A stretch of 64,000 nucleotides of DNA from a virus. This document shows positions 3,693-59,957 of the stretch, piece by piece. The stretch is from positions 1 through 64,000 of IMG/VR virus record IMGVR_UViG_3300037264_007501; one strand, written 5' to 3'. How positions within the stretch are numbered: the first letter of the stretch is position 1; every line of letters starts with the position of its first letter. Under the pieces are notes generated by a model. The model made no database searches and was not told the DNA's origin. It saw nothing but the letters and a program-made list of their open reading frames with translations. The position numbers were made by a program, and so were the translations under genes.

Positions 3693-4604
3693 TTAGCGAT
3701 GACCATCAAAGAACTGCATCAGGAACTCGAACTGACGTTTGATGAAGTCGAGCTCGGCCTCGTTGCCGGGCAGCACTTCAGCATCGAACTTGACCATCTT
3801 GCTCGTGCCGGAGAACTTCATCGGCTGGGGCTGCGGGGTGCCGCAGTCCTTGGTAATGCCACAGACGATGGCGTTGTTGTTACTCGCACTCCAGGCCTTG
3901 ATGAAGTCCGTGCTCTCCACGATATCCAACCGGGCGTTGTAGTTCGTATCCTGGATGTTCCCCTTGGAGTTGATGCCGAGAAGAAGGGGTTTCGTGATGT
4001 CGGCGATATCAAATGCTGGGCCTCCCGAGTCGCCGAAGCAAAGTGCCGCTCCTCCTGGGGCCTTGCCGCTGACCACATCGTAGCCAGATATCCCCGTGAT
4101 CCGGTTCTTACCCTGTCGCAGCTGCCCGTCGTTGCCACCACCGCCACCTGGGTTGGTGCAGCCGTAGCCAAAGATCTGGATATCGACCCCGTTGACGACC
4201 TTGCCGCCGATGCTGGCCGGCTTCAGATCAGCAATCTCTTGGTCGAGGTAAACCATGGCAATGTCGTGGTCCTTGCCCGGGTAGATACTGCTGCGCGTGG
4301 CCGTACCGGTGAAGACCGCGTTGGGGTCACTGATGATGTTGGGCCGGGTCGCACGGAGCTTGAAGGTTACCTTGGCTCCGTTTTGCGCGCAGTGCGCGGC
4401 CGTAATGACGGCACGGGGACCAACGATGGTAGCCGTGCAGCGGGCGTTGTTGACGCTGATGTAGACCACCTCCGGAAAGAGCGGCAAAGGCACCACGGTT
4501 CCATTGATGAGTGTTGGGTGGATAGGCTGGCCCTGGGCATCCTTGAAGATAGGATCGCCGGCCATGGCCGTACTGCAAAGCAACGACAGAAGTAGTGTTT
4601 TCAT
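3693..4604 (-). CDS. Secreted trypsin-like serine protease (S1 family)
   Basis: 303 aa from ATG at 4604, which overlaps the previous stop as ATGA. Residues 1-16 (MKTLLLSLLCSTAMAG) are a Sec signal peptide, so the enzyme is exported. The catalytic triad is visible: H71 in TAAHC, D114 in HDIAMVYL and S193 in CFGDSGGP. Cys56 and Cys72 bracket the His as in trypsins. There is no long propeptide. The C-terminal 60 residues beyond the protease fold are of unknown role. The downstream partner is a terminator and the upstream partner is a small HExxH protein. A secreted trypsin is unusual for a phage. It could attack the host envelope, outer-membrane proteins or competing factors; the target is unknown. 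Confidence 0.93.
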   Translation of the reverse strand: MKTLLLSLLCSTAMAGDPIFKDAQGQPIHPTLINGTVVPLPLFPEVVYISVNNARCTATIVGPRAVITAAHCAQNGAKVTFKLRATRPNIISDPNAVFTGTATRSSIYPGKDHDIAMVYLDQEIADLKPASIGGKVVNGVDIQIFGYGCTNPGGGGGNDGQLRQGKNRITGISGYDVVSGKAPGGAALCFGDSGGPAFDIADITKPLLLGINSKGNIQDTNYNARLDIVESTDFIKAWSASNNNAIVCGITKDCGTPQPQPMKFSGTSKMVKFDAEVLPGNEAELDFIKRQFEFLMQFFDGHR

Positions 4605-4885
4605 CGTCCGTATGCCTCTTTCTCGAAGGGGTGTTTGAGGTACGCTAACCGGTGTGAGCGGTACTGGACAAGCCCTTTCAGGTAGTACCACAGGTACTTG
4701 ACGTAGAATCCAAAGACTCCGTGAGTGTCCATCTGCCGCTGGTGCACCATCTCGTGCTCGAGCAGCGCCTTTGAGACCTGCTCTTTGGCGTCTCTGAAAA
4801 GGATGGTGCGGCCGAAGACAGCGCCCTCGTACTTTTTCATCCATGGCATCTTGAAGTACCAGTGGGAGTATTTGATGGTGGTCAT
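4601..4885 (-). CDS. Small HExxH zinc-metallopeptidase-like protein
   Basis: 94 aa. The motif LLEHEMVHQRQ (H44, E45, H48) is the HExxH zinc-protease signature in a predicted helix. The rest is rich in aromatic and basic residues (KYLWYYLKGLV, KHPFEKEAYG). No signal peptide is seen. It forms a two-gene unit with the trypsin, with an ATGA start/stop overlap. The upstream minus-strand sequence AGTAGTAGATATAC, found also before the 3582 gene, sits directly against the start codon. Enzymatic activity is inferred only from the motif and its small size. Confidence 0.7.
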   Translation of the reverse strand: MTTIKYSHWYFKMPWMKKYEGAVFGRTILFRDAKEQVSKALLEHEMVHQRQMDTHGVFGFYVKYLWYYLKGLVQYRSHRLAYLKHPFEKEAYGR

Positions 4886-4926
4886 GCGTATATCTACTAC
4901 TGCAGCGCGCAGCTACAGGCAAGACG

Positions 4927-5866: not shown

Positions 5867-6817
5867 ATGAAGCTTATTCTCCTCTTTATGATTGTGTGTG
5901 CCATTGCGCTTCCCGCTCCCAAGCACAAGACCTACAAGTCCAGTAAGAAGCACCGCCACCACATGGGGCTCAAGAAGAAGAAGCTGAACAAAGAGCGGCG
6001 TAAGATGCGTGCGGCCGCCATTCCCATCCCGGACAAGCTCGACCTTCGGCCGAACCTGACGCCCATTTTGGACCAGGGCTCTTGCGGGTCTTGCTGGTCG
6101 TTTAGCCTGACTTCCATGCTGAGAGATGGGTACACGCTGAAGGGCATGGACCCGGGCCCAGTCTCGCAGCAGTACTTAGTCGATTGCGCTGAAACCAGCG
6201 CGGGTTGCAGCGGGGGGTATTTCGATGCTGCCGACTACCTGCAGCTCCCGAAGGGCTCGCCATCGGCAGAAGCGTACCCGTACCGCGGGGTTACTTCGGC
6301 CTGTCAAAAGGTCCCGCCAGTAAAGGGCGTCGTCGGCTGGCACATGCTCGGTGACGCTGATGGCGTGAGCACTCTGGATATCGAGTCGTACATGGCTCGG
6401 TCAGGAAAGCCGGTTTCAATCACGGTCGCGGCCGCTGCCGGCGAATGGGAAAGCTACGACTCTGGCATCTACAACGACTGTGTCTATGCCGGGGTGGATC
6501 ACATGATCAACATAGTCGGCTGGGACAACGAGGGCGCCTCCTTCGATGCCAAGGGGAATCTACCGCCTGGTAAGGGCATCTGGATCCTCCGCAACTCCTG
6601 GGGCCGCCGCTGGGGTGAGGAGGGCTGGATGCGCACCAAGATGACGGACGAGTCCGGAAAGAAGTGTAACAACGTCGCCGACGAAGCCGCGTATTTCGAC
6701 TTTGAGGCGCCTGCACCGCCACCGGAACCCGGCAGCAGCAATAGCTGGCCTATTGCGATTGGTTCTCTGCTGGGCCTCGGGCTGCTCCTAGCCCTCAGAG
6801 CCAAGAAGAGGAAGTAG
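5867..6817 (+). CDS. Secreted, membrane-anchored papain-like cysteine protease (C1A)
   Basis: 316 aa. Residues 1-16 are a signal peptide. Residues 20-48 are extremely Lys/Arg/His-rich and could be a short propeptide. The catalytic core is clear: Q70 and C76 in DQGSCGSCWSF, H212 in VDHMINIVGW and N243 in RNSWGRRWG, plus the papain GCSGG motif at about 113-117. After a Pro-rich linker (APAPPPEPGS) comes a transmembrane helix (about 293-311) and a terminal KKRK, the layout of a C-terminal anchor or sorting signal. Start: GGGAGACCCC precedes the ATG. Cysteine proteases of this class normally cut proteins outside the cytoplasm; the target here is unknown. Confidence 0.93.
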   Translation: MKLILLFMIVCAIALPAPKHKTYKSSKKHRHHMGLKKKKLNKERRKMRAAAIPIPDKLDLRPNLTPILDQGSCGSCWSFSLTSMLRDGYTLKGMDPGPVSQQYLVDCAETSAGCSGGYFDAADYLQLPKGSPSAEAYPYRGVTSACQKVPPVKGVVGWHMLGDADGVSTLDIESYMARSGKPVSITVAAAAGEWESYDSGIYNDCVYAGVDHMINIVGWDNEGASFDAKGNLPPGKGIWILRNSWGRRWGEEGWMRTKMTDESGKKCNNVADEAAYFDFEAPAPPPEPGSSNSWPIAIGSLLGLGLLLALRAKKRK

Positions 6818-14617: not shown

Positions 14618-15166
14618 TTACCCCTTCGTCCAATACGGGTGCACAGCCCCGTCCACTTCCATCGGCACATTTTTCATCCACACTTCCGCGGCCTCTTTCA
14701 TGAGGCGCAGTTTCACCTCATGGAAGCTCGCAGAGTCATCTTTGTTGGTGCGCGTTACGATCTCGTCATAGATGGCGTTCACAAAGCTGGTGCGGACGCC
14801 GTTGGCTTTGCGGTGCCGGCGGATATCTGCCATGGCCTTTTTGGTGATGTCGGCGTTCACCGACTGAATCATGAAGTTGCCTCCTTCGCGTTCGATCTTG
14901 GCTATCTTTCCCTTGTACTCATCGCCCCACTTGCCGCCTTCACAAGACTCTGGGTATGGGATGATCCAGTTACGCCGGCGGCCGTTGAGGTTGGCTAGGA
15001 ACCCCTCTCGCACGGCCTGGCGGCCAGCATCGCGGAGAAAGCCTACAGCCGTTGAATAGGTGGTGCAGTACTTACGGTGCAGATCGCGGGCCTCATCCAT
15101 GGTCACTGGGAAGCCGTCACCATTGAGGGCTTCGTAGAGCCCTCCTGGGCCTTGTCCATACGCAAT
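14618..15166 (-). CDS. polA: DNA polymerase I family, exon 2 (C-terminal polymerase domain)
   Basis: 182 codons of coding sequence after the intron. Exon 2 begins at 15166 with ATT GCG TAT GGA (IAYG), which completes motif B as NFG-IAYG with exon 1. Motif C is NAIYDEIV (about nt 14750-14773), carrying the catalytic Asp-Glu pair. The junction phase is exact: exon 1 is 425 whole codons and exon 2 is 183 codons including the stop. The spliced protein is about 607 aa, similar to other phage family A polymerases. No start codon of its own is needed. Confidence 0.88.
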   Translation of the reverse strand: MAYGQGPGGLYEALNGDGFPVTMDEARDLHRKYCTTYSTAVGFLRDAGRQAVREGFLANLNGRRRNWIIPYPESCEGGKWGDEYKGKIAKIEREGGNFMIQSVNADITKKAMADIRRHRKANGVRTSFVNAIYDEIVTRTNKDDSASFHEVKLRLMKEAAEVWMKNVPMEVDGAVHPYWTKG

Positions 15167-15753
15167 CAGCTGTTCCCTGATTACTCAGGGGCTAGACTAT
15201 ACCTTGTAGAACGCTAGCAAGGTTGCGTAACAGCAAAAGACTCCCAACAGCGGTGTTCGATCTGGTGGCAGCGCTTGCATAAGCACTCCAAGTTCGTCAG
15301 CTCGTTGTTGTACCTGTTCCCATCTTTGTGGTGGATTAGCAGGTGCTTTTTGCTGCTGCAACGCTCGCAGGCAGTGCGCTTCTTTAGCCTTCTGTACACA
15401 CCAATTCCACCTGTCCAATTGTTATTGCTTGGACCGGCCTGGCTGTACCCCTTTTTCACGTAGTGGTTTTTGTACCACTTTTGCATATACACTTTCTTAT
15501 GGATAGCTTGGCAGCCGACGCAGCGTTTTTGTGCTGGGCCAGTAGGTGTATATCTTTTTGAACATTGTACGCACTGTCTTCTCACGTTATACCTCGCCGT
15601 GTTTATGCCGTTGGCATACGCAGTCCGCGGGCGGTCTGTCCGCGCTGTCAGTCGTTGCACGCTTCCGCTGTTCCCAGCGGATTCGCTCAGGATTGCCCCT
15701 GAGGGGTTTCCCTGAATTGAGCGAGTTTTGATTCGGCTTGGTCGCATTAACTA
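15167..15753 (-). mobile_element. Group I intron in the DNA polymerase gene
   Basis: 587 nt between GGT (exon 1 ends in U) and ATT of exon 2; the intron ends in G. Without removal, TAG follows the GGT codon at once. Group I core signs on the minus strand: CAATCCTGAGC (15695-15685), the typical P4/J3-4 stretch; AAGGTATAGTCTA near the 3' end, typical of P7; and a P9 hairpin CCCTGA-GTAA-TCAGGG (15190-15175) with a GNRA loop. The insertion is in motif B, the most conserved polymerase site, where other phage polymerase introns also sit. An HNH endonuclease frame fills most of it. Confidence 0.87.
15214..15747 (-). CDS. HNH homing endonuclease inside the intron
   Basis: 177 aa from ATG 15747. The HNH motif is at the C-terminus: LLIHHKDGNRYNNELTNLEC followed by CKRCHQIEH, with extra zinc pairs CVQC...CVGC (about residues 59-78) and CERC (about 126-129). 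The N-terminal 50 residues run through the intron core, so the true start may be a later codon, for example near residue 57 or Met88. The known role of this family is nicking or cutting the intronless allele to spread the intron. Confidence 0.85.
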   Translation of the reverse strand: MRPSRIKTRSIQGNPSGAILSESAGNSGSVQRLTARTDRPRTAYANGINTARYNVRRQCVQCSKRYTPTGPAQKRCVGCQAIHKKVYMQKWYKNHYVKKGYSQAGPSNNNWTGGIGVYRRLKKRTACERCSSKKHLLIHHKDGNRYNNELTNLECLCKRCHQIEHRCWESFAVTQPC

Positions 15754-17028
15754 ACCGAAATTTAGATTCTTTGCTGGTGTTCGCAAGCGGCTGTTCTCGC
15801 CCTTCTTGGTTACCTCTACTCCATACAGGTCAGTGGCCACAGCGCAGTGGATATCCTCTCCTCGTTGGAAGATACCAGTCAGCTTCTTGTCCCCAGATAT
15901 CTCGGCCAGGATCCTCGACTCACAACCAGAGTAGTCGTCGCTCTCCATGACTTCGTCTGGGTAGCAGATAAAGCAATGGCGGAAGGCGTTCTCTCTTGGG
16001 ATGTTGAGCGGGTTGACGTCGCTCTCTCCAGCGGCAGGCCTCCCGGTGTCAGTTCCCATCTGCCAGAGGTTGGGGTGGATCCTACCAGTCAGCGGGTTGA
16101 TGGCGTCGATGAAGGGCTGACCGTAGGTGTTGATCCGCTTCTGCAGGCTTCTCCACTTTTGGAGGGCCTGAATGAATGGTAGATCCCGCAGCTTCTTCAG
16201 AGTCTTCTTGTCGGTCTTAGTCACAGGAAGATAGCTGTCACCCTCTTTGATTTTGACCTTCATCATTCGCAGGAGAGTAACCACCTGCGATGGTGAGCCA
16301 TAGTTCATGTCGACTTCGTCGAAGAGATTGACCCCAACGAAAGGTGACGCGAACACGTCCAGCTCTGACTTGGCCACAACCGCAAGACCGGTGTGCTTTT
16401 CGATCAGTGCCTGCCACGCCGGCACGTCGATGAGCATCCCGTCGAACTCCATGTCGCCAAAGGACGACACTACATCACACTCGAGCTGAAACGTGGGAAT
16501 GAGGCCAGCTGGCCGCATCTCGTCCAGCATCTTTTTGCAGAGCGGGATCATGTGCACGACGTCGTCCGCGGCGTATTGGAGCTGCTCCTTGGTGAACGCG
16601 CCCTTGTGGCCGATGAAGCTCTTCTGGAGTGTCTTGTCAGCCACGATGCCCAGACGCTCGAGGAGCACGTCCTCCAACCGGAAGCCGCGCTTCTTCTTGC
16701 CGGCGGTGAGAACCTTCTCGCCGATGAGAGTGTCTCGGATACCCTCCAGTTCGATCTGAGAGGTGCCCTTCAGCATCTTGTAGTCGAACTTGAGGTTGTG
16801 ACCTACTTTGAGCACGTTTACGTTTTCCAAAAACGGACGCAGCGGCTCTATGCTGGCCGTGCGCGTATCGATAACGAACTGCTCTTCTTGCCGACCGATC
16901 TGGAGCAGAACAACTTTGTCTTTGTGGGCATCCAGCCCGGTTGTTTCTGTGTCAACTCCCCACGACGGGAAGCGCATCAGCTCTGGCAGGATGGCAGCTA
17001 CGCCACCTGATTCTGTAATGTATTTCAT
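15754..17028 (-). CDS. polA: DNA polymerase I family, exon 1 (3'-5' exonuclease and palm/fingers)
   Basis: 425 codons. The exonuclease domain has VDTETTGLD (Exo I), GHNLKFDYKML (Exo II) and YAADDVVHM (Exo III), so proofreading should be active. There is no 5'-3' exonuclease domain. The polymerase part has DTGRPAAGESDVNPLNIPRE, motif A DDYSGCESRILA, and the first half of motif B, RTPAKNLNFG, where the intron interrupts. The ATG follows AGGATAAAA. It is the replicative polymerase candidate of this phage, working with the clamp, SSB-like protein and helicase encoded further right. Confidence 0.92.
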
Positions 17029-17064
17029 TTTTATCCTCTGGTTAACTTGTACCAGATATCGGTA

Positions 17065-17304
17065 TCATTGGAGGCTTCGAATGGCTATGACCTTGGCCTT
17101 TTGCGTGTCTGTATATCTACGCTTCTCGTGCCACGGGTCACCGGGGCCAGACCGGTACACACTGCGAGAGTCATCGATCCATCTTGCCAGCGTGGCGTTG
17201 GCAATCTTTGCCACGAGCTTGTAGACGGAGTCAAAGAGGCTGCACACCGGGGACCCGTCATTGACGGAGTCATTGAAGTGGTCAGGCGTAAACTGCCAGT
17301 CCAT
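17065..17304 (-). CDS. Hypothetical protein
   Basis: 79 aa with a strong AGGAGGCGTT site before ATG. Contains WIDDSRSVYRSGPGDPWHEK and a basic C-terminus. Located 36 nt ahead of the polymerase start and probably co-transcribed with it. No family recognised. Confidence 0.65.
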   Translation of the reverse strand: MDWQFTPDHFNDSVNDGSPVCSLFDSVYKLVAKIANATLARWIDDSRSVYRSGPGDPWHEKRRYTDTQKAKVIAIRSLQ

Positions 17305-17365
17305 AACGCCTCCTGATAAATTTTTAGGGAGATGTATATATCCTAGCGTGGAACCTGGGAAGCCG

Positions 17366-17566
17366 TTACCACAGCGGGCTACCAGGCTTGGGCTCGAACT
17401 TCTTTTCTTTCAGGAGAGCGTCAATCAGCTTCTCAATGACCTCGCTCTTGGCCAATTGATTCTCCCAGCAGTAGCTGTTGAAGAGAGTGTGTATATCGGG
17501 GTGGACGTAGGCGGTTATTGCTTTGCGGGGCAACCCTTTGGTAGAGACTCGCTTTGGACGGGGCAT
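17366..17566 (-). CDS. Small ribbon-helix-helix-like protein
   Basis: 66 aa from ATG 17566. The pattern KAITAYVHPDIHTLFNSYC followed by LAKSEVIEKLIDALL is a beta strand plus two helices, as in ribbon-helix-helix DNA-binding proteins. The N-terminus is basic (PRPKRVSTKG). It follows the tmRNA gene by 59 nt on the same strand. A local transcription regulator is a reasonable guess. Confidence 0.6.
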   Translation of the reverse strand: MPRPKRVSTKGLPRKAITAYVHPDIHTLFNSYCWENQLAKSEVIEKLIDALLKEKKFEPKPGSPLW

Positions 17567-17624
17567 CAACTGCAAGTATGGACTTGTTGCCACGGATTGC
17601 ACCGGTGGCCGCGGCAAAAGTTTT

Positions 17625-18026
17625 TGGAGGTAGCGGGGATCGAACCCGCGTCCAGAGTGCGTCATCAATTAAGTCCCACGAGCGTCTCCCGTTTAAAGCC
17701 TGGGCAGGCTGTAGGGGCAACCCTTTCGGATGGCCCTCCACCATCTGGTGTTGTCTCACGGTCCAGCAACCGCACTCACTCTCATTAGGGGGGAGGAGGC
17801 AACCCTTTTGCTGAGTTCTGTTGCCAGGCCTTCAGCGCCCCGATCGCTTTGCCCTCAGTGAAGAGGGTTAGGCGGCCATACGTTGACTTGCAACCTTGCG
17901 GCCGAAGTCGACGTGTACAACATTGCTGTTGTTACTTGTGTTTTGCCTATCCGTTTTAAGGAGTGGCTAGGCTAGCTCCGCTCGCACCCGATCGAATCAG
18001 TACCCTGTCGAAACCATTACACCCCC
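17625..18026 (-). ncRNA. ssrA: Transfer-messenger RNA (tmRNA)
   Basis: 402 nt, one-piece form. The 5' end is GGGGGTGTAATGGTTTCGACAGG (starting at 18026), the standard tmRNA start. The 3' end is GGACGCGGGTTCGATCCCCGC-TACCTCC-A, with a perfect T-arm. The acceptor stem GGGGGUG/UACCUCC forms 7 bp with a G3-U70 wobble, the identity mark for alanyl-tRNA synthetase. CCA is not encoded (AAAA follows). The tag frame ends CAA CGT ATG GCC GCC TAA (stop at 17870-17868), giving ...SQRMAA, close to the usual -LAA degron. The resume codon is uncertain. It would rescue stalled ribosomes and tag the products. Confidence 0.93.
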
Positions 18027-18048
18027 GTAAGCAGACTGTATATCCATA

Positions 18049-18057
18049 TGATACAAT
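18049..18057 (+). promoter_or_regulatory. Extended -10 promoter of the 69-aa exported protein
   Basis: TG-A-TACAAT (18049-18057) ends 10 nt before ATG 18068, so the leader would be only a few nucleotides and carries no Shine-Dalgarno site. It lies back to back with the 5' end of tmRNA. Confidence 0.5.
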
Positions 18058-18067
18058 AAGTCATCCC

Positions 18068-18277
18068 ATGAAATTACTGCTATGCCTCTTGCTTTTGAGC
18101 TCTATCGCACGCTCTTGCGACGATGACGAGCCAGAGGTGGAGTCAACTGACACCATTGAAATGGTTGAGCTAGTTGACCCGGATCCACCCAAGCAGTTCT
18201 ACAGCGGCAGCGACGTTGACACCTCGCATGAGCGGCAGTTCTACGACGATAGCAGGTACTACCCAGAGGATGATTAG
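18068..18277 (+). CDS. Small acidic exported protein
   Basis: 69 aa. MKLLLCLLLLSSIARSC is a signal peptide, possibly a weak lipobox (ARSC). The mature part is very acidic (DDDEPEVES, YYPEDD) with no other Cys. It is the only plus-strand gene between two long minus-strand runs and is convergent by 4 nt with the next gene. The function is unknown. Confidence 0.6.
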   Translation: MKLLLCLLLLSSIARSCDDDEPEVESTDTIEMVELVDPDPPKQFYSGSDVDTSHERQFYDDSRYYPEDD

Positions 18278-18498
18278 AAGCACTGCACTTCGGGTCTGGC
18301 ACACCGAACGATCGGGCCGCCCGGGTAGTTGAGATCCAGCCCGGTCATGACCTCGTCCCGGTATCGGCAGGCGGTGCCATATTCAACGTGCGCTGGCCCC
18401 AAGCGGGCCTGGCAGAAGATCTTGGCCACGTCCGACCCGTAGACCTTCATTGCGGTGAGGAGCAGAATGACTACGCTGACGGCGATAAGTTTTTTCAT
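18274..18498 (-). CDS. Small exported protein
   Basis: 74 aa from ATG 18498, with AAAGGAGGCAAC upstream. Residues 1-22 (MKKLIAVSVVILLLTAMKVYGS) are a signal peptide. The mature part has four Cys (FCQARLG, TACRYRD, VRCARPEVQC), likely two disulfides. It overlaps the upstream gene by 4 nt. No family recognised. Confidence 0.65.
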   Translation of the reverse strand: MKKLIAVSVVILLLTAMKVYGSDVAKIFCQARLGPAHVEYGTACRYRDEVMTGLDLNYPGGPIVRCARPEVQCF

Positions 18499-18719
18499 GT
18501 TGCCTCCTTTGGCGGAGCATAGCCCTTCTTCAGGGCCTTCGCCAGTTGGGCAAAGTAGCTGGAGAGCGCCTGGGCCACCTCTGCGTCGTTGCAAGCGATG
18601 CACAGCATCGAATCCTGCATGGGAGCCGCGTCCAGGGTAATCCCCTTCCACCCCTCATCCAGCGCTACTGACCGAATCTTTGTGTCCTGGTTGATCTCGT
18701 GCAGCCTCAGCTTTTTCAA
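18495..18719 (-). CDS. Hypothetical protein
   Basis: 74 aa. Strand-rich start (KLRLHEINQDTKIRSVALDEGW) and a helical end (AEVAQALSSYFAQLAKALKKGY). It overlaps the upstream Cys-rich gene by 65 nt in another frame and the downstream signal-peptide gene by 4 nt. No family recognised. Confidence 0.6.
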   Translation of the reverse strand: MKKLRLHEINQDTKIRSVALDEGWKGITLDAAPMQDSMLCIACNDAEVAQALSSYFAQLAKALKKGYAPPKEAT

Positions 18720-19266
18720 CTTTCACCTTCTTGTTGTATTGTGGTTCCCAGGTAGCCAAAGTCTGCTTCTTGTTCCACTGATCGACAAAGGCGACGAGCT
18801 CGTCCACGAGGATGAGATGGTCGTAGGCATCCTCGAAGAGGTCCTCGGTGGCTGCTTCCATGGCGTGGTGGATGTTGATGCCAGCGAAAGACTCTACCTT
18901 ACAGGGGTGAACGAACTCCGGCATGCTCTCTTCGTCGTCGCAGTAGTGATCGAGTAGCTCGTCCATGTCCATGAAGTAGCGCTTGTTGTCGAGCACTGGG
19001 CCGCCGTCGTATTCCACGAGCTCGCGCTTGGCCTCGTGAGCAGCCTCCTTGCAGTTGTCGCAGAGGATGTGCCACTTACCCAGCTTCTCCCCGCACTTGC
19101 AGTAGGTTTGCCGGCAGCACTCCTCCGCGGCCTTGTAGGTGCCGTCGTTCAGGGAGAGCTTGTGGCATTCGCCACAGGCCCACACGGGGCTGGGGATAGG
19201 GACGCTGTCCGCCCCCAGGGTGTATAGTTGAATGGGCGGTTTTAGATTATCCACTAGTGTCTTCAT
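18655..19266 (-). CDS. Cys-rich probable zinc-binding protein
   Basis: 203 aa. The N-terminal half has CGEC, CCRQTYCKC and CDNC pairs (residues about 31-72), consistent with two zinc-ribbon knuckles. The central region is acidic (DMDELLDHYCDDEESMPEF) and helical. The last 25 residues lie in the overlap with the next gene and are basic. It starts inside the stop of the upstream gene (ATGA type). Cytoplasmic; the function is unknown. Confidence 0.65.
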   Translation of the reverse strand: MKTLVDNLKPPIQLYTLGADSVPIPSPVWACGECHKLSLNDGTYKAAEECCRQTYCKCGEKLGKWHILCDNCKEAAHEAKRELVEYDGGPVLDNKRYFMDMDELLDHYCDDEESMPEFVHPCKVESFAGINIHHAMEAATEDLFEDAYDHLILVDELVAFVDQWNKKQTLATWEPQYNKKVKVEKAEAARDQPGHKDSVSSAG

Positions 19267-19532
19267 ATGTGTCTCTCCATGAACTCTCGGTCAGTTTGCG
19301 CGGGGTAGTCGTTGAACGCTCTTACGAGCTTTGAGCACCTCTCCAGTAGTTTGTCGACGTCTACAGGGCTGCAAGCCTCGTAGATAAAATACGGGTTTGA
19401 ATCTTTGGGATGTGGGCACACGGCACCGCCGGCCTCACCCGGGGTGCAGAACGAGTTCAGTTCCTCGATGGACCATCCATCTTCGGCGTAGAATCTGAGC
19501 AAAAGATTGCTCGAGAGGATCACTTTTTTCAT
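19263..19532 (-). CDS. Hypothetical protein
   Basis: 89 aa. MKKVILSSNLLLRFYAEDGW has a strand rather than a signal peptide. Four Cys are spread through the middle (SFCTPGEAGGAVCPHP, EACSPVDVDKLLERC). Coupled to the 19266 gene by overlap. No family recognised. Confidence 0.6.
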   Translation of the reverse strand: MKKVILSSNLLLRFYAEDGWSIEELNSFCTPGEAGGAVCPHPKDSNPYFIYEACSPVDVDKLLERCSKLVRAFNDYPAQTDREFMERHI

Positions 19533-19533
19533 A

Positions 19534-19887
19534 TCATGGAATAGCGAGGCAAGCGGCCATCAGCGCAGCCTTACCAGCGGCGCTGGCAAAGTCTAGGCTG
19601 CACTCCCACCTCTCCGGCACCTTCGAAGCCGCGGTAGCAACTATGACGTCCACTATCAAGCCGCATGTGAACGGGTTGAGGGCGACTGCGCCAGTGTCAG
19701 TGCAGAGCCCCAGTCCACGCGCCGCCTCTCGCACGTCCTCTTTGACGAGGTCTGCTCGTTTGCATTGCAGAAGAGCGACTGTGGCGCCGGTGACAGCAGT
19801 CACACCCACGTCTTGAATGACGCATCCTGGCTTTTTTGTGCAGGCCGAAAAGAACACAAATGGAAGGAACAGAAGTAGTTTTTTCAT
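19534..19887 (-). CDS. Lipoprotein of unknown function
   Basis: 117 aa. MKKLLLFLPFVFFSACTKK is a lipoprotein signal with the Cys at residue 16. The mature part has five further Cys and two hydrophobic helices (VGVTAVTGATVALLQ, FTCGLIVDVIVATAAS). It resembles small phage exclusion or envelope lipoproteins only in general layout. It is followed on the same strand by the 19532 gene, one base away. Confidence 0.7.
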   Translation of the reverse strand: MKKLLLFLPFVFFSACTKKPGCVIQDVGVTAVTGATVALLQCKRADLVKEDVREAARGLGLCTDTGAVALNPFTCGLIVDVIVATAASKVPERWECSLDFASAAGKAALMAACLAIP

Positions 19888-19896
19888 TCCCGGATA

Positions 19897-20367
19897 TTAC
19901 TTTAGATAGCTGCGGACCGCCTCAAATAAAGTGCGGACCGTCTCGGATCCAGCACTGAATCTGCGCAGGAGTCTGGTCTCTATCGTGCACACTTCGTTGA
20001 CGCAAGACTCGACGTCAGTGGTGAGCGCGGCCGCAGGCAACGACAAGCCGCTCTCTTGGAAGTAGGTGCGGTATATCTGGCGGCGGAAGTCGGGCTGCAT
20101 ATCCAGGCCAACTCCGAGTTTGGCTTTGTAGGCGGCTACTCCGGCTTCGGTTGGCTGAGAGGCGGGGTGGACGTCGGTCACTACGTAGACTGTGATGTAG
20201 GCCCGGGGGTCTAGCTTTCCTTTATGTCGGTCCACTTCTGGGATTTCTTCGTTGCACCCCCCGCACCATGGCGCAGAAAAGAGGAGCAGGTGTACGTTGT
20301 CATATCGTTCGTGTGGGGTAGGCGAAGCACTGCATGCAGCCAGTAGAAGAAATAAAAGAGCGCGCAT
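19897..20367 (-). CDS. Thioredoxin-fold lipoprotein
   Basis: 156 aa. The lipoprotein signal MRALLFLLLAACSAS has its acylated Cys at residue 12. Then comes a thioredoxin-like strand and active site, LLLFSAPWCGGCNEEIPEVD (C35, C38), as in TlpA/ResA proteins. Later strands (AYITVYVVTDVHP) fit the fold, and a second Cys pair (ESCVNEVC) may form a structural disulfide. It should act in the periplasm, anchored to a membrane, reducing or forming disulfides. The neighbouring exported Cys-rich proteins are possible substrates. Confidence 0.85.
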   Translation of the reverse strand: MRALLFLLLAACSASPTPHERYDNVHLLLFSAPWCGGCNEEIPEVDRHKGKLDPRAYITVYVVTDVHPASQPTEAGVAAYKAKLGVGLDMQPDFRRQIYRTYFQESGLSLPAAALTTDVESCVNEVCTIETRLLRRFSAGSETVRTLFEAVRSYLK

Positions 20368-20368
20368 T

Positions 20369-20491
20369 TCACAAGTCTACCATCAGCTCCTTCAGGTGTT
20401 TCCACCCGCTGCGCAAAACCATCCCGGCGGCTACGCCAGTCAAAAAACTAACCACGATGAACGCGGTTGTGCTTTGGTCAAGAGTGCACAT
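20369..20491 (-). CDS. 40-aa membrane protein
   Basis: ATG 20491 follows AGGAGGACGT, an excellent ribosome site. The product is MCTLDQSTTAF followed by a hydrophobic helix (IVVSFLTGVAAGMVL) and a basic tail (RSGWKHLKELMVDL). The stop lies 1 nt before the thioredoxin-lipoprotein start, so the two are coupled. A small single-pass membrane protein of unknown function. Confidence 0.65.
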   Translation of the reverse strand: MCTLDQSTTAFIVVSFLTGVAAGMVLRSGWKHLKELMVDL

Positions 20492-20499
20492 ACGTCCTC

Positions 20500-20841
20500 C
20501 TAGTTTTTGGGTTTTGCAAGCAGCTCGGCCACGACTTCGCGCGCCTGCTGCTCAATTCTCTTTTCTATCGCATATCTGAGATTGTAGTTCTCCTTGATGA
20601 CGGTATCCACAGCCTTCTTGAGTAGCTCCTGCATGGAGCGTGTCACCTGCTCGTGTATTTCACGGGCGAGATTTTGCTCAAAGTGAATCAGACCATCCTT
20701 GATGGCGGCGTTGACCACCGGCTCTAGCTCAGCGTCCCACATCCCCCGTACGTGGTGCACTATCTGTGTTTTCAATTCCGCGAGCTCGATGCGTACGAGC
20801 CCTGCTAGATGGCCGCCGTGCGACCGTCCTTCTGATTGCAT
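20500..20841 (-). CDS. Helical hypothetical protein
   Basis: 113 aa. Almost wholly amphipathic helix (LVRIELAELKTQIVHHVRGMW, REIHEQVTRSMQELLKKAVDTV, IEKRIEQQAREVVAELLA), so probably a coiled-coil or oligomer. AAAGGGATAACAC precedes ATG. It stands ahead of the 40-aa membrane protein. No family recognised. Confidence 0.65.
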   Translation of the reverse strand: MQSEGRSHGGHLAGLVRIELAELKTQIVHHVRGMWDAELEPVVNAAIKDGLIHFEQNLAREIHEQVTRSMQELLKKAVDTVIKENYNLRYAIEKRIEQQAREVVAELLAKPKN

Positions 20842-20967
20842 GTGTTATCCCTTTTGGAGGTGCAACCCTCCGAATATCTGTTCTCTGTGTCATCGTCTGT
20901 GAAATTGAGGAAGGTGGTCTTGACCGGCCCGTGAAGGCTCCAGTCCCACTCCCAGTCGCGGTATACG

Positions 20968-21165
20968 TCAGACGCCTAAGCTTGCCTTCGTAATGTACTC
21001 GGTGACATTCCCCTTGCAGCGCTGGTCAGCCAGCTTCTGGATTTTGGAGAAATCGCGCCTGCGAAAGCGAATTAGCTTGGAGACGTTCTTTGCGTTGATC
21101 GGCTCCGCTGCCTTTGCTTCCACAACCGCCTTTGCTTTCCGAATCTTCGTCACTTTCTTTTTCAT
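20968..21165 (-). CDS. Small basic protein, possible RHH-like DNA-binding protein
   Basis: 65 aa from ATG 21165. Lys/Ala-rich start (KKKVTKIRKAKAVVEAKAAE), then VSKLIRFRRRDFSKIQKLADQRCKGNVTEYI, reminiscent of the strand-helix-helix of small regulators. The stop context is GTC TGA C, and an open +1 frame continues for 54 codons with no start codon of its own. The start is uncertain; GGACGG is a weak ribosome site. Confidence 0.5.
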   Translation of the reverse strand: MKKKVTKIRKAKAVVEAKAAEPINAKNVSKLIRFRRRDFSKIQKLADQRCKGNVTEYITKASLGV

Positions 21166-21391
21166 AGACTGCCGTCCATATCCTCTGGTCCCAGCTACAC
21201 CTAAAGGGGCCATTATAGAGATTTGCGCATGTGGAGTTGTAGCGAACTCTGCATGATGCCTCCGGAGCGCCTAAGCTATCCAGAGTCAGTTGCTTTAGGT
21301 TGTAGATATACCCATTTTTATGATTCAACGCAAAAAATCCTTTACCTCTTTTTTCTAGCAGCTGACGAAGAGAACTGAAGATATAGGCCAC
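21026..21391 (-). CDS. Hypothetical protein with long 3' overlap
   Basis: 121 aa from GTG 21391, which overlaps the region of the previous stop (GAGGTGTGAGGTG). Residues 2-75 look like a real domain (IFSSLRQLLEKRGKGFFALN, GYIYNLKQLTLDSLG, YNGPFRCSWDQRIW). The last 45 residues lie in the out-of-frame overlap with the 20968-21165 gene and are low complexity. Coding status is moderately supported by coupling to the gene before it. Confidence 0.45.
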   Translation of the reverse strand: MAYIFSSLRQLLEKRGKGFFALNHKNGYIYNLKQLTLDSLGAPEASCRVRYNSTCANLYNGPFRCSWDQRIWTAVYEKESDEDSESKGGCGSKGSGADQRKERLQANSLSQARFLQNPEAG

Positions 21392-21392
21392 C

Positions 21393-21842
21393 TCACACCT
21401 CGTAGACCATGTCAAGTAGCTTTGGCTGATATCTGATCCAGGCTTTACCGATCGCATCCGAAGAGAAGTCGATGAACGTGTTGTCGGGCGCCTGGAACTT
21501 CACGTAGCCGGCGACAGCCAGACGATCAAGCCCTATGATAGAAGCCTCCTTGGGAATGCCGGCCTGCTCAAGCCCCCAGACCATGTCGCCGATGAGCCCC
21601 TCTTGCACGTCCTTTTGTTTCTCAAAGCAACTCAGCAGCGCGTGAAGCACGACCTGAGCCTCTGGCGGTAGCAGGGCTGGTACATTCTTGCTCGCCTCGT
21701 AGTAGGGGCGCAGCTTGCGCAACGGCTGCGGGTTGTTCTCCACCACCGCTTCCAGCGTCATCACGCTTGCTGGCGGTGTCGTCCCCTCCGGAGGTTTGGA
21801 ATCCAGATGCTTGAACTTTTCGGTGATCTCTCTATCGTCCAT
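21393..21842 (-). CDS. Hypothetical protein
   Basis: 149 aa. N-terminal acidic and Pro-rich linker, then a helical region (EAQVVLHALLSCFEKQKDVQEG) and a winged-helix-like end (LIGDMVWGLEQAGIPKEASIIG, RLAVAGYVKF, FIDFSSDAIGKAWIR). A DNA-binding winged helix is possible. It starts within the upstream gene (82-nt overlap). No family recognised. Confidence 0.65.
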   Translation of the reverse strand: MDDREITEKFKHLDSKPPEGTTPPASVMTLEAVVENNPQPLRKLRPYYEASKNVPALLPPEAQVVLHALLSCFEKQKDVQEGLIGDMVWGLEQAGIPKEASIIGLDRLAVAGYVKFQAPDNTFIDFSSDAIGKAWIRYQPKLLDMVYEV

Positions 21843-22003
21843 ATTCCCTCATCATGAGCTATTTTTATGCACTTGGGGCAGGTCAGTTCTTCTGGAGTGG
21901 TGGCGAGCTTGCCCTGTGGTTTCCACGGCTCTAGTCCGCACCTCCTCACTGGAGCACCGAGGTGTCCTCTGTTACTGCCGTACGGCTTTTCTGGTTTACC
22001 CAT
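21761..22003 (-). CDS. Small zinc-knuckle protein
   Basis: 81 aa from ATG 22003 with GGGAGGTAAG upstream. Contains LTCPKCIKIAHDEGIW and a further Cys at about residue 22. Its start lies 2 nt past the stop of the YhaM-like gene, so it is in the same operon. The last 27 codons overlap the 21842 gene in another frame. Confidence 0.55.
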   Translation of the reverse strand: MGKPEKPYGSNRGHLGAPVRRCGLEPWKPQGKLATTPEELTCPKCIKIAHDEGIWTIERSPKSSSIWIPNLRRGRHRQQA

Positions 22004-22004
22004 C

Positions 22005-22964
22005 TTACCTCCCGTACTGATAGAACGAAGCCTTCTCAAAGTAGGAACGTTCGCTGAACCCGGCTACGGGCCCAGTCTTTCCCTCGATCAAGTCAATGGC
22101 GTGCAGCATCTTAGCGTCGAGGTAATCCAGTTGATGAACAAGGATGGCCTCTAGGGACGCGGGCACCACCGGAGACCCCCACGCTACCTGCCCGTGGTGT
22201 GCGGCCAGGATATGCATGAGATGGGCGCGCTCCACCTTGAAGTTCTCTGGCGGTGCTGGGCACTTGTTTGCTTTTTCGTACACCCAGGCTGGTCCAATCA
22301 CAATGTGCGGAGTGAACTGCCCAAGAGCGCTGTAGCCAATCGTCGGCTTTGAAAAGTCGTACTCGATGACTTTGGCGGCGTCATGTAGCATCAGACCGAA
22401 GAGAACTTTGTCTCTGCTGAACGCGACGCCATACCTCTTCTGGTAGTGCTTAATGACCGGCTCAGCGATGGTGCACAGAGAGTGCACGTGTTCAATGAGT
22501 CCGCCATGCCAGTTGTTGTGGATGGTCTTTGCCGCCGGCGCCTTCTTGAACAGCTCGATGAAGTCGGCGTGCTTCAGAAGGATCTCTTCGGTCACGTACT
22601 TGGTTAGCGGCTCCGTAAAGGTGTCTACCAGTGCGACCAGCTCAGTCCACATTTGCTCGATGTTGAACCGAGTGCTATTGACGTAGTTCCCGTACGGCTC
22701 GGTGCTGGCGTAGGCATCGTTGACGATCATTTGCGGGGCGCCGTTGTACTCGTCCACCGGCCCTACTACTTGAAGGACTGCCCCCTCCTTTACGTTCGGG
22801 TACCTGTCCACGTCGAAGTTCCAAATCTTGGCCTGGATAGCTCCGGACTTATCTCTGAGGGTCAGAGTGGCGTACGGCTTTCCGTTCTTGGCCGTGCTGA
22901 CCACCATCTTCTCAACGAGTGCGTGTATATCTGCTACGTCGCCTTTCACAAGTGACTTAATCAT
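22005..22964 (-). CDS. YhaM-like 3'-5' exoribonuclease (OB fold plus HD domain)
   Basis: 319 aa, the family's usual length. Residues 1-90 are an OB fold (MVVSTAKNGKPYATLTLRD ... IQAKIWNFDV, GAVLQVVGPVDEYNG). The HD domain has HNNWHGGLIEHVHSL, GLMLHDAAKVIEY (His-Asp metal ligands) and HILAAHHGQVAWGSP. The end LEAILVHQLDYLDAKM matches the family's last conserved helix. YhaM enzymes degrade RNA and ssDNA from the 3' end. A phage copy may turn over host mRNA or process its own. Confidence 0.88.
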   Translation of the reverse strand: MIKSLVKGDVADIHALVEKMVVSTAKNGKPYATLTLRDKSGAIQAKIWNFDVDRYPNVKEGAVLQVVGPVDEYNGAPQMIVNDAYASTEPYGNYVNSTRFNIEQMWTELVALVDTFTEPLTKYVTEEILLKHADFIELFKKAPAAKTIHNNWHGGLIEHVHSLCTIAEPVIKHYQKRYGVAFSRDKVLFGLMLHDAAKVIEYDFSKPTIGYSALGQFTPHIVIGPAWVYEKANKCPAPPENFKVERAHLMHILAAHHGQVAWGSPVVPASLEAILVHQLDYLDAKMLHAIDLIEGKTGPVAGFSERSYFEKASFYQYGR

Positions 22965-31168: not shown

Positions 31169-32080
31169 ATGAACGAACTAGACGCAGTCACGTTCAATAA
31201 CCTCTTTATTGAGAGGTTGGACACGACCGAAGGAATCCAAAAAACCGCCGCCGCCGGAGCCGCGTTCGTGCGTTCCAAAATCCGTGAAATCGGATTTGGT
31301 CGCCGAGTGTTGCCACCGGAATCGGTAACCCGTGCCGATACCACTCGGTCCACTGATCACGACACGTTGATCAAGATCGTGGATATCGAGCACGACTCCA
31401 AGGCAATGGCTGTGAATTTCGCCGGCGAGTCCGACGAACGTTACATCCAAGGAAAACGCTACGCACTTCCCTTCTTTAAGATCGAATCTGAGAAGTTTGT
31501 GAAGAGCGAAGGCGAACTCCTGGCCTACGATTACCCCATCACGAAGGTAATCGAGGAGAACAGCATCAAGGACATCCAACGTACCGAGGACGAAAAGTTC
31601 ATCGAGTACGCTGAGTCTGCGATCACCATCACGGGGAAGCGCATTGTTTCTCCGGCGACCGCTGCGGACAGAAAAGAGCTGAACTCTCTTTTCAAGATGA
31701 TCGATTTCGATCAGCTGACCGCCGCGACCGTGCTCATGAACACCGTCGACTTCGACGACTACATGGTCCAGCCGGCTACTGAAGTCGGTTCGCCATTGGC
31801 CAGCGAAATCACCGTCAACGGTTACAAGTACCCGACGATCATGAAGCGCAAGCTCGTGGTCACCAACAAGCACGATATCGTGAAACCCGGATTCGTCTGG
31901 GCCTTCACGGATCCTGCTTACTTGGGTAACTTCTTCATCCTGAACGACGTAAAGTTCTGGATCAAGAAGGAAGCGGACCTTGTGATCTGGAAGACGTGGG
32001 AGTACGTCGCCGAAGGCTTCGGAAACATCAAGTCGATCGCCAAGATCGAACTTGACGTCCCGAGCCCGATCCCGGTCTGA
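31169..32080 (+). CDS. Major capsid protein (HK97-type)
   Basis: 303 aa with a strong AAGGAGGAAAT site, as expected for a highly expressed gene. The N-terminus has GIQKTAAAGAAFVRSKIRE (K-T-A motif at about 24-27), a plausible maturation cleavage point. The body has long strands and helices typical of HK97-type capsids (SEGELLAYDYPITKVIEENS, ESAITITGKRIVSP) and ends with WEYVAEGFGNIKSIAKIELD. A stem-loop follows the stop. The identification rests on fold-like features, synteny (protease, decoration, capsid) and the ribosome site. Confidence 0.78.
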   Translation: MNELDAVTFNNLFIERLDTTEGIQKTAAAGAAFVRSKIREIGFGRRVLPPESVTRADTTRSTDHDTLIKIVDIEHDSKAMAVNFAGESDERYIQGKRYALPFFKIESEKFVKSEGELLAYDYPITKVIEENSIKDIQRTEDEKFIEYAESAITITGKRIVSPATAADRKELNSLFKMIDFDQLTAATVLMNTVDFDDYMVQPATEVGSPLASEITVNGYKYPTIMKRKLVVTNKHDIVKPGFVWAFTDPAYLGNFFILNDVKFWIKKEADLVIWKTWEYVAEGFGNIKSIAKIELDVPSPIPV

Positions 32081-57691: not shown

Positions 57692-58774
57692 TTAGATCAG
57701 TCCGTCTGCATTGCCCTGAGGCATGGGAGCTGCCGGCGGCGGAGGCGAGGCCTTGTGCTCCACCGTAGCCGCGGCTTTGGCCTTGGCCTCAGCGTCTGCT
57801 ATCTGCGTGTTGAGGTAGTTCATGAGCGCCCCCTTGATGTCGGTCGCCTTCTCGAACTGTCTCGCTGTCAGCTGGCGCGTCTTGGGCGAGTTCGCCTTAC
57901 CTTTCAACGCGGTCAACTTCACAAACAGCGGAGCCAGCTCAGGGTCCTCTGCGATCGCTTCAATGCCTGGCGGCTTGGCACCCACTTCTTCGACGATGAT
58001 GTCGTTCGTGGACTCTTCCAGTAGCTTCTGCGTAGGCACGGCCATGGCCGCTCCGGAGGATAGCTCCAGCAGCGTGTTTCTCATCAGGTCGCCGTGCTTG
58101 GCCAGGAACCCTTCCTTATTGGGTACGATGTTGAGTACGTAGTGGACCCGGCTCTGGCTCTTGCCGTCCTTGTCTACGAATTGAATGTTGGTCGGCTCAC
58201 GGTAGATGCGGAAGGGGATGTTCTTCAGAACGCCCCACTGCGCTTTGATGCTCCCTACGATAGAGATGAAGTTGTTGATGGCACTGACGCTGTTGGTGTC
58301 GATCTGGTACACGCCGAACAAAGAAGCAAGAGGCACCAGCACATAGACACTCATCGACGGCCGGCACTGTTGCTTACCGTTGACTATCCAATCTGTGCAC
58401 TTCTCAGCCAAGCACGTCCTGGTCGGCACAACCCGGGTAACCGGATCGCGTTTGGCCATGTGGTGTGCCACTTCTCCGTTGCCGTAGCACTGGAGGCGGC
58501 CACCGACCATCTTGCCGTCCTTGTCCTTGGCGCCTCCAGCGTACCATTTGTACCAATAGGGCATGACCTCGTTGGGATCATCCGAGATAAAAAAGCAATC
58601 GATGGAAGTGGGTGCGTCTCCGTAGACACGGGCCACATCCGGTGCGTCCGTCAGGACGAAGTGCGGTGTTTCAACTGGGTACTCCTTGCCACCCTGGCTG
58701 ATCTTCTTCTCACCCAAACGAATTTTGCCAATGACACCCATGTGGCGGTTTTTTTCAAACGATGCAATAGCCAT
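57692..58774 (-). CDS. Gp3-like protein (recombination directionality factor family)
   Basis: 360 aa with AGGAGGATAT before ATG. VIGKIRLGEKKISQGGKEYP, THFVLTD, RVYGDAPTSIDCFFISDD, YKWYAGG, GRLQCYGNGEVAHH, then CLAEKCTDW and QQCRPSMSVYVLVPLASLFG follow the phage Gp3-like family, named after the phiC31 recombination directionality factor but also found in lytic phages. Cys residues suggest zinc. The C-terminus is Ala/Pro-rich. The actual role here (DNA or recombination) is open, as no integrase is visible. Confidence 0.7.
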   Translation of the reverse strand: MAIASFEKNRHMGVIGKIRLGEKKISQGGKEYPVETPHFVLTDAPDVARVYGDAPTSIDCFFISDDPNEVMPYWYKWYAGGAKDKDGKMVGGRLQCYGNGEVAHHMAKRDPVTRVVPTRTCLAEKCTDWIVNGKQQCRPSMSVYVLVPLASLFGVYQIDTNSVSAINNFISIVGSIKAQWGVLKNIPFRIYREPTNIQFVDKDGKSQSRVHYVLNIVPNKEGFLAKHGDLMRNTLLELSSGAAMAVPTQKLLEESTNDIIVEEVGAKPPGIEAIAEDPELAPLFVKLTALKGKANSPKTRQLTARQFEKATDIKGALMNYLNTQIADAEAKAKAAATVEHKASPPPPAAPMPQGNADGLI

Positions 58775-58802: not shown

Positions 58803-59957
58803 CTAAAGTGCGTCCGTTATCGACCGCTGTTTAGTTACCACTTCACCGACGCTTCGTAGCGTCTCCGTGGCCGTTACTTCGCCGCAAGCCGCGGCTAGCT
58901 TTCTCAAGTTGATGGCAGCGTTTAGATCGCGATCGATCCTCACTCCGCACTCACACTGAAAAGTTCGTTCGCCAAGCGATAACGTACCCTTGACTAGTCC
59001 GCAAGAACTACACGTCTTGCTGGACGGGAAGAAACGGTCCGCCACTACTATTTTAGTTCCGTATATCTCTGCTTTGTAAGCGAGCAGGCTTCGAAACTTA
59101 GAAAAGCCAGCGTCACTGATAGCCTGCGCCAGCTTGTGGTTCTTCTGCATGTTGCTAACAGCAAGATCCTCAATCCCTACCGCTTGGTTTTCACGGCAGA
59201 GTCTCGTCGTCAGCTTGTGCAAGCCATCATGGCGGATGTTCCGAATACGGCGGTGAATCTTAGCCACTACCATTCGCTGCTTGTTCCGGTTTTGCGATCC
59301 TTTCACACGGCGGCTCAGCTTACACTGAGCACGTCGTAGTTTTTTCTGGGCTTTGCGGAGCGGCCTTGGATTTTCGATTTGCTCCCCCGTGGATAACGTG
59401 ACCAGTGTTCTTATACCAAGATCCACTCCGGCAGTCCCGCTACCGTCGCGCTTCTTGCGCAGCTCGCCGACGTCTACTGAAACGCACAGGAACCACTTGC
59501 CGGCTTCTTCGACGACGCGGGCTGGATGGATTTTGCCGGTGAGACGGAGCGCTTCGTGCATTTTTACTCTGCCGATCCTAGGCAAGCGAACACTCTTACC
59601 AGCAGTGTAAAAGGTGTGGTTTGGAACGTAGAAAGACGCTCTAGCCTTCCCTTTGCATTTGAACGTAGGCCATTGGGCTCGTTTTGAGAAAAAATTACCG
59701 AAGGCTCTTTGCAGATCTATAAATGGCTGCGAGTGGCAGCCGCTATGAGCCTCCTTCACCCACGGGAACAGCTCTGGATAAGTGGCGTTAAATAATCTCT
59801 TGATCGAGTGCCCCGTTGGTCTGCCGCCAGCCTTGTACTGGCTGTTCCACTCAGCCAATCCCCAGTTATAAACAAAGCGCGTGGTACCGGCAGCACGGCG
59901 AAAATATTCGGCCTGTCTTACCGTAGGATCCAGAGCTATTTTATGTGAGAGGGTCAC
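58803..59957 (-). CDS. tnpB: TnpB (IS200/IS605-type RNA-guided nuclease)
   Basis: 384 aa from GTG 59957, near the usual 370-410 aa. RuvC motifs are intact: GVDLGIRTLVTL (Asp), GIEDLAVSNM (Glu) and RIDRDLNAAINL (Asp). The zinc finger is CSSCGLVKGT...FQCEC. The N-terminal REC/WED part (RFVYNWGLAEWN, NATYPELFPWVKEA, HSQPFIDLQRAFGNFF) is typical. The start overlaps the previous stop (CAGTGACC). No tnpA is near, so it moved alone or lost its transposase. The omega-RNA should lie at or just past the 3' end (about 58700-58900); its guide cannot be read with confidence. Confidence 0.92.
   Translation of the reverse strand: MTLSHKIALDPTVRQAEYFRRAAGTTRFVYNWGLAEWNSQYKAGGRPTGHSIKRLFNATYPELFPWVKEAHSGCHSQPFIDLQRAFGNFFSKRAQWPTFKCKGKARASFYVPNHTFYTAGKSVRLPRIGRVKMHEALRLTGKIHPARVVEEAGKWFLCVSVDVGELRKKRDGSGTAGVDLGIRTLVTLSTGEQIENPRPLRKAQKKLRRAQCKLSRRVKGSQNRNKQRMVVAKIHRRIRNIRHDGLHKLTTRLCRENQAVGIEDLAVSNMQKNHKLAQAISDAGFSKFRSLLAYKAEIYGTKIVVADRFFPSSKTCSSCGLVKGTLSLGERTFQCECGVRIDRDLNAAINLRKLAAACGEVTATETLRSVGEVVTKQRSITDAL

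Follow-up and report, generated by a model that had tools for sequence, protein, structure and literature searches.

A complete one-piece tmRNA gene in the genome of an uncultured phage, with a hairpin inside its tag reading frame

We have found a complete one-piece tmRNA (ssrA) gene in a phage genome, and describe its structure and tag reading frame as well as its retention and conservation in related phages. The gene lies at 17622-18026, on the minus strand, of the window, by which we mean the whole 64,000-nucleotide stretch analyzed, taken from an uncultured virus record of 71,398 bases. In a covariance-model search, the full RF00023 model (1-374) aligned in order to 18026-17622 of the minus strand, scoring 78 bits where the cut-off is 47 (E 1.4e-28); this was the only match in the whole record. 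A preliminary description made from the letters had already proposed a complete one-piece tmRNA at 17625-18026, which is exactly the span from G1 to the discriminator A, with the strand not given; ARAGORN, which it had named as a second check, found nothing in the window. For comparison, we assembled a set of 14 phage tmRNAs (the window, L053-L061, L187, L083, L084 and L086; L188 was left out, its match being incomplete at both ends). G3-U70 and the discriminator A are present in 14/14 of these, and all seven acceptor pairs in 13/14, with the pairs varying by compensation. Given the E-value and this acceptor compensation around a fixed G3-U70, the match in the window is not due to chance.

The tRNA-like domain bears out the preliminary description in its details. 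With RNA nucleotide 1 at 18026 (nucleotide n at 18027-n), the 5' strand of the acceptor stem, GGGGGUG (18020-18026, minus), forms 7/7 pairs, including the alanine identity pair G3-U70, with the 3' strand UACCUCC (17626-17632, minus), which is followed by the discriminator A at 17625; the T-arm, GCGGG-UUCGAUC-CCCGC (17633-17649, minus), is canonical with 5/5 pairs. Nucleotides 403-405 (AAA) occupy the place of CCA and the 3' end reads AAAA, so that CCA, as had been noted, is not encoded and must be added; it is encoded in 7/14 phage tmRNAs and absent from the window and 6/13 others. Two of the phage tmRNAs, L058 and L059, have T-arm loops GGCGGCU and GGCAGUA in place of UUCGAUY and, in the D-loop region, UUAGAUUCG in place of UGGUUUCG; the D- and T-loops may possibly have changed jointly.

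Of the four pseudoknots typical of tmRNA, PK1 is clear (GGAG/CUCC and GCCUA/UAGGC, 17945-17979, minus), its complementarity agreeing with the RF00023 alignment at PK1. Candidates for PK2 (GCUGA/UCAGC and GGCAAC/GUUGCC, 17798-17836, minus) and PK3 (CGGU/ACCG and CUGG/CCAG, 17745-17772, minus) were picked solely by complementarity, and no PK4 was made out. A helix, CCCUC-UUCACU-GAGGG (17852-17867, minus), stands directly 3' of the stop codon. The sequence GGCAACCCTTT has three exact copies (17529, 17716 and 17798), two in the 3' part of the tmRNA and one beyond its 3' end, a copy number slightly above chance.

The tag reading frame (17868-17933, minus) runs from AAC to GCC UAA and comprises 21 codons, which would add NNSNVVHVDFGRKVASQRMAA behind the alanine with which the RNA would be charged; it closes with AUG GCC GCC UAA, and the frame ending in M-A-A-stop that had been pointed out earlier is therefore real. 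This tag is unusually long, but the type is also bacterial, and it ends hydrophobic-Ala-Ala as usual. Its start was set by comparison with the relative L059 (AUAA-GU-GCU vs. ACAA-GU-AAC in the window) together with the published tetramer preference, and the resume codon is accordingly taken to be AAC. The cited passage describes A-U-A-(A/G) two bases before the resume codon as a strong but not absolute preference (PMC4236655); in the window the tetramer is ACAA rather than AUAA/AUAG, with the last two As kept and the U changed to C, a point that counts against a working tmRNA. An alternative frame through ACA GCA AUG was rejected because its last residues are PPNPLH and relatives do not share it.

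The segment N-V-(V/I/T)-x-V-(D/E/N)-F is present in 11 of the 14 phage tmRNAs, whose tags have 19-25 codons, and missing from the other three, whose tags have 8, 12 and 14 codons; the phage tag frames end in a stop, 12/14 of them after -AA. Over aligned bases, identity among the 11 long-tag tmRNAs is only 65-75%. We rejected the notion that this segment is phage-specific, since some tags of bacteria have it too (for instance AKNVIHVDFSRPQYALAA, ANVVKVDFTPQALAA and AEKQTSNVIAVDFSAENVDLERAAA). A scan of a genome collection of 84,980 species for the segment with tmRNA-like spacing gave eight matches, four of them real tmRNAs (two in Margulisiibacteriota, one in Waddliaceae and one in 'Proteobacteria bacterium AM_0240'); narrower scans for the segment matched 4/232 genomes in the phylum of G074, three of which look like tmRNA, and 1/45 genomes in the class of G073.

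We built an HMM from the 11 long-tag phage tmRNAs and ran it on 77 bacterial tmRNAs from three groups only, which does not amount to a host assignment; it scored best with the class of AM_0240 (L089), at 91 (L273), 79 (L272), 75 and 70 bits; the best scores were 57 bits in Chlamydiota and 38 in Margulisiibacteriota. This ranking hints at a donor or host. The tmRNAs of the AM_0240 class and of Chlamydiota resemble that of the window in their long tags and are the closest of the three groups sampled. Global pairwise identities between the window and bacterial tmRNAs are inflated by gaps and were not used for ancestry, and capsid relatives, found in 0/45 genomes of the nearest bacterial class, are uninformative as to the host.

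Wholly within the tag frame of the window lies a hairpin with a GCAA loop (17880-17914, minus), a feature that all 11 long-tag phage tmRNAs have at this position, with compensatory changes. The hairpin starts at the F codon or close to it in all 11, as it does in a single Waddliaceae tmRNA. Numbered from the first base of that codon, positions 3 and 4 are paired in 12/12 with several pair types (GC, GU, AU or UA at position 3; GC, CG or GU at position 4), and position 6 has CG, GC or GU. Compared with versions made of synonymous codons, phage tags of at least 20 residues fold more stably (n = 9, mean z -1.5), as do long bacterial tags (n = 32, mean z -1.23), although the sequences are related rather than independent and summed z-scores overstate the certainty. 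Short tags of 8-14 residues have no extra stability (mean z +0.58 for three phage and +0.22 for 23 bacterial tags), and tags of 15-19 residues average -0.14 in bacteria (n = 13) and -1.42 in two phage tags; L061 runs opposite to the long-tag trend with a z of +0.18 (+0.45 in another run). The bacterial rows are the 77 of 78 loci found by ARAGORN, from which three duplicate tags and six double stops were dropped, and six of the rows kept have doubtful tag starts. The hairpin as a phage-only element was hence rejected, given that bacterial long tags fold likewise.

Searches with the capsid protein of the window (31169-32080) gave relatives in IMG/VR; Salmonella phage Arash and three Vibrio phages have distant ones, with 30-33% identity. 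The phage belongs to a group without a close named relative, and window positions 15000-22000 gave no match at the DNA level to any phage record. RF00023 was run on 36, 33 and 5 further records, with 9/36, 2/33 and 3/5 above cut-off; the three positives of the last batch had been picked by tag pattern, its other two members being Arash and Vibrio phage D69, both without a tmRNA. Records under about 5 kb from the capsid search were mostly left out, and all records are uncultured and may be fragments. Eleven records measure 100 kb or more and have a capsid at least 59% identical to that of the window; eight of them carry a tmRNA (G020, G023, G024, G029, G031, G032, G035 and G043), and G001, G042 and G044 had no match; among eight distant records of at least 100 kb with a capsid 30-48% identical (G047, G056, G059, G061, G065, G066, Arash and D69), only G047 exceeded the cut-off, with an incomplete match.

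The gene appears to come and go within the group. G001, with a capsid 90% and a polymerase 65% identical to those of the window, has no RF00023 match, and between conserved flanks it has 203 bases where the window has 550 (17572-18122), about 350 fewer; judging from these sequences, a tmRNA-sized stretch is missing from G001, the base-level alignment at the gap being too poor to place the joints. In L053 and L061, the flanks of the tmRNA match other parts of the window (at ~60 kb and 9.4 kb), so the place of the gene is not conserved. The family A DNA polymerase gene (14618-17028, minus) is split into an N-terminal part (15751-17028) and a C-terminal part (14618-15106), with an HNH endonuclease frame (15214-15747) between them; since the two parts are contiguous in G001, the ~590 bases have the look of a mobile element inserted into the gene, and no group I intron in the window exceeded the Rfam cut-off. 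The terminase large subunit (19-2526, plus) has an intein-like stretch with a LAGLIDADG domain, and a TnpB-family RNA-guided nuclease gene (58803-59957, minus; NCBIfam, above the subfamily cut-off) adjoins a recombination-directionality-factor-like gene (57692-58774). The window also encodes a papain-type cysteine protease (5867-6817) and a trypsin-type protease (3693-4922).

We consider it probable, from the sequence features described, that the gene yields a working phage tmRNA that uses the SmpB, AlaRS and CCA-adding enzyme of the host and recycles ribosomes during infection, with ribosome rescue as its likeliest use. We infer that the RNA would be transcribed, charged, used with SmpB and put to tagging with benefit to the phage, in the following manner: 1) the phage RNA would be trimmed and receive CCA from the host CCA-adding enzyme; 2) host AlaRS would charge it with alanine by way of G3-U70; 3) it would bind host SmpB and enter ribosomes stalled on broken mRNAs; 4) alanine plus the tag peptide would be added and the ribosome would stop at UAA; 5) the product bearing the tag would be marked for a tail-specific protease of the host. 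The phage would probably benefit because ribosomes stay available as mRNAs are cut by RNases of host and phage, perhaps including a YhaM-like enzyme. The YhaM-like RNase invoked in the preliminary description is present at 22005-22964 (minus) as a putative 3'-5' exoribonuclease, with an OB-fold and a full-length NCBIfam YhaM match; the latter, at 137 bits, is under the equivalog cut-off of 460, and its HD match in Pfam is likewise sub-cut-off. That this enzyme makes truncated mRNAs for the tmRNA to act on is only a suggestion. Besides the putative AAC resume codon and the ACAA tetramer, a working tmRNA is opposed by the strict sigma-70 scan, which found no promoter (0.8 expected by chance; TATACA was spotted by eye about 10 bases before nucleotide 1), by the absence of the gene from 3/11 large relatives including G001, and by its shifting location.

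The patchy presence and varying places of the gene among related phages would also suit a passenger, i.e. a host tmRNA gene acquired by imprecise excision or recombination and carried without use, and passages in two papers describe ssrA as a common integration site (PMC9004378, PMC11915505). We find this very unlikely, considering that the gene is whole rather than a 3' fragment, that its structure is conserved across divergent phages and that most large relatives retain it. The RNA might instead serve as a decoy, binding SmpB and stalled ribosomes and thereby slowing host trans-translation, as proposed for phage DS6A, whose tRNA-domain-only RNA is described in passages of PMC11915505 and PMC4131195 as inhibitory when expressed in E. 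coli. The lack of SmpB in all 14 phage records, with the same search positive in 10/14 control genomes, would fit such a role, and it counts equally for a working tmRNA that uses host SmpB. Unlike DS6A, the window tmRNA retains its tag frame with stop codon and hairpin, as well as PK1 and the candidate further pseudoknots, none of which a decoy needs, and we hold this reading to be highly improbable.

An addition to the working tmRNA, rather than an alternative to it, is that a phage tag with N-V-V/I-x-V-D-F would send the proteins it marks to a protease or adaptor different from that used by the host tag. The segment is found in the 11 long-tag phage tmRNAs and missing from the three short-tag ones; yet some bacterial tags share it, and the phage tag may simply match that of its host. 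We regard such re-tagging as unlikely. A little more doubtful still is the proposal that, in this phage lineage, selection has acted on the tag at two levels, the peptide, with N-V-V/I-x-V-D-F ... A-A as its signal, and the RNA, with a hairpin that the ribosome has to open mid-tag, such that phage labelling differs from that of the host; if true, proteins may, for example, be spared from, or sent to, a particular protease.

Phage tmRNAs are already established, and what is new here is another phage group carrying one. The window tmRNA resembles the bacterial one-piece form (RF00023) in its G3-U70 tRNA-like domain, PK1, tag frame, post-stop helix and candidate PK2 and PK3, and differs from it in its phage location, 21-codon tag, inferred AAC resume codon and unencoded CCA. 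According to passages in PMC4131195, PMC9004378 and PMC5764925, Bxz1, Bacillus phage G, the Streptomyces cluster BE1 phages and the methylophage Melnitz likewise have a complete tmRNA in a phage genome, with that of Melnitz being two-piece vs. one-piece in the window; the RNA of DS6A, also of the tmRNA family, is described in a passage of PMC11915505 as having no tag frame. A list of tmRNA-carrying phages is found in PMC4131195, and a passage of PMC7162821, which names ARAGORN, reports huge phages with both tmRNA and SmpB. Among the titles listed by our literature searches on phage-encoded tmRNA, phage tags, tag hairpins and Arash, none dealt with this group or with a hairpin within a phage tag. 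The view that phage tmRNAs are rare is fair in light of the 402/18,146 phage genomes given in a passage of PMC9004378 that also names ARAGORN. However, this program missed 7/14 phage tmRNAs (as trimmed sequences) while finding 77/78 bacterial ones (a set picked as strong Rfam matches); the published count is therefore probably low, and phage tmRNAs are probably commoner than reported. The present finding adds a tailed-phage group whose records reach 182 kb; most of its large members have a tmRNA, the position of which varies. The folding data suggest a general rule that long tags, phage and bacterial alike, fold their own reading frame whereas short tags do not.
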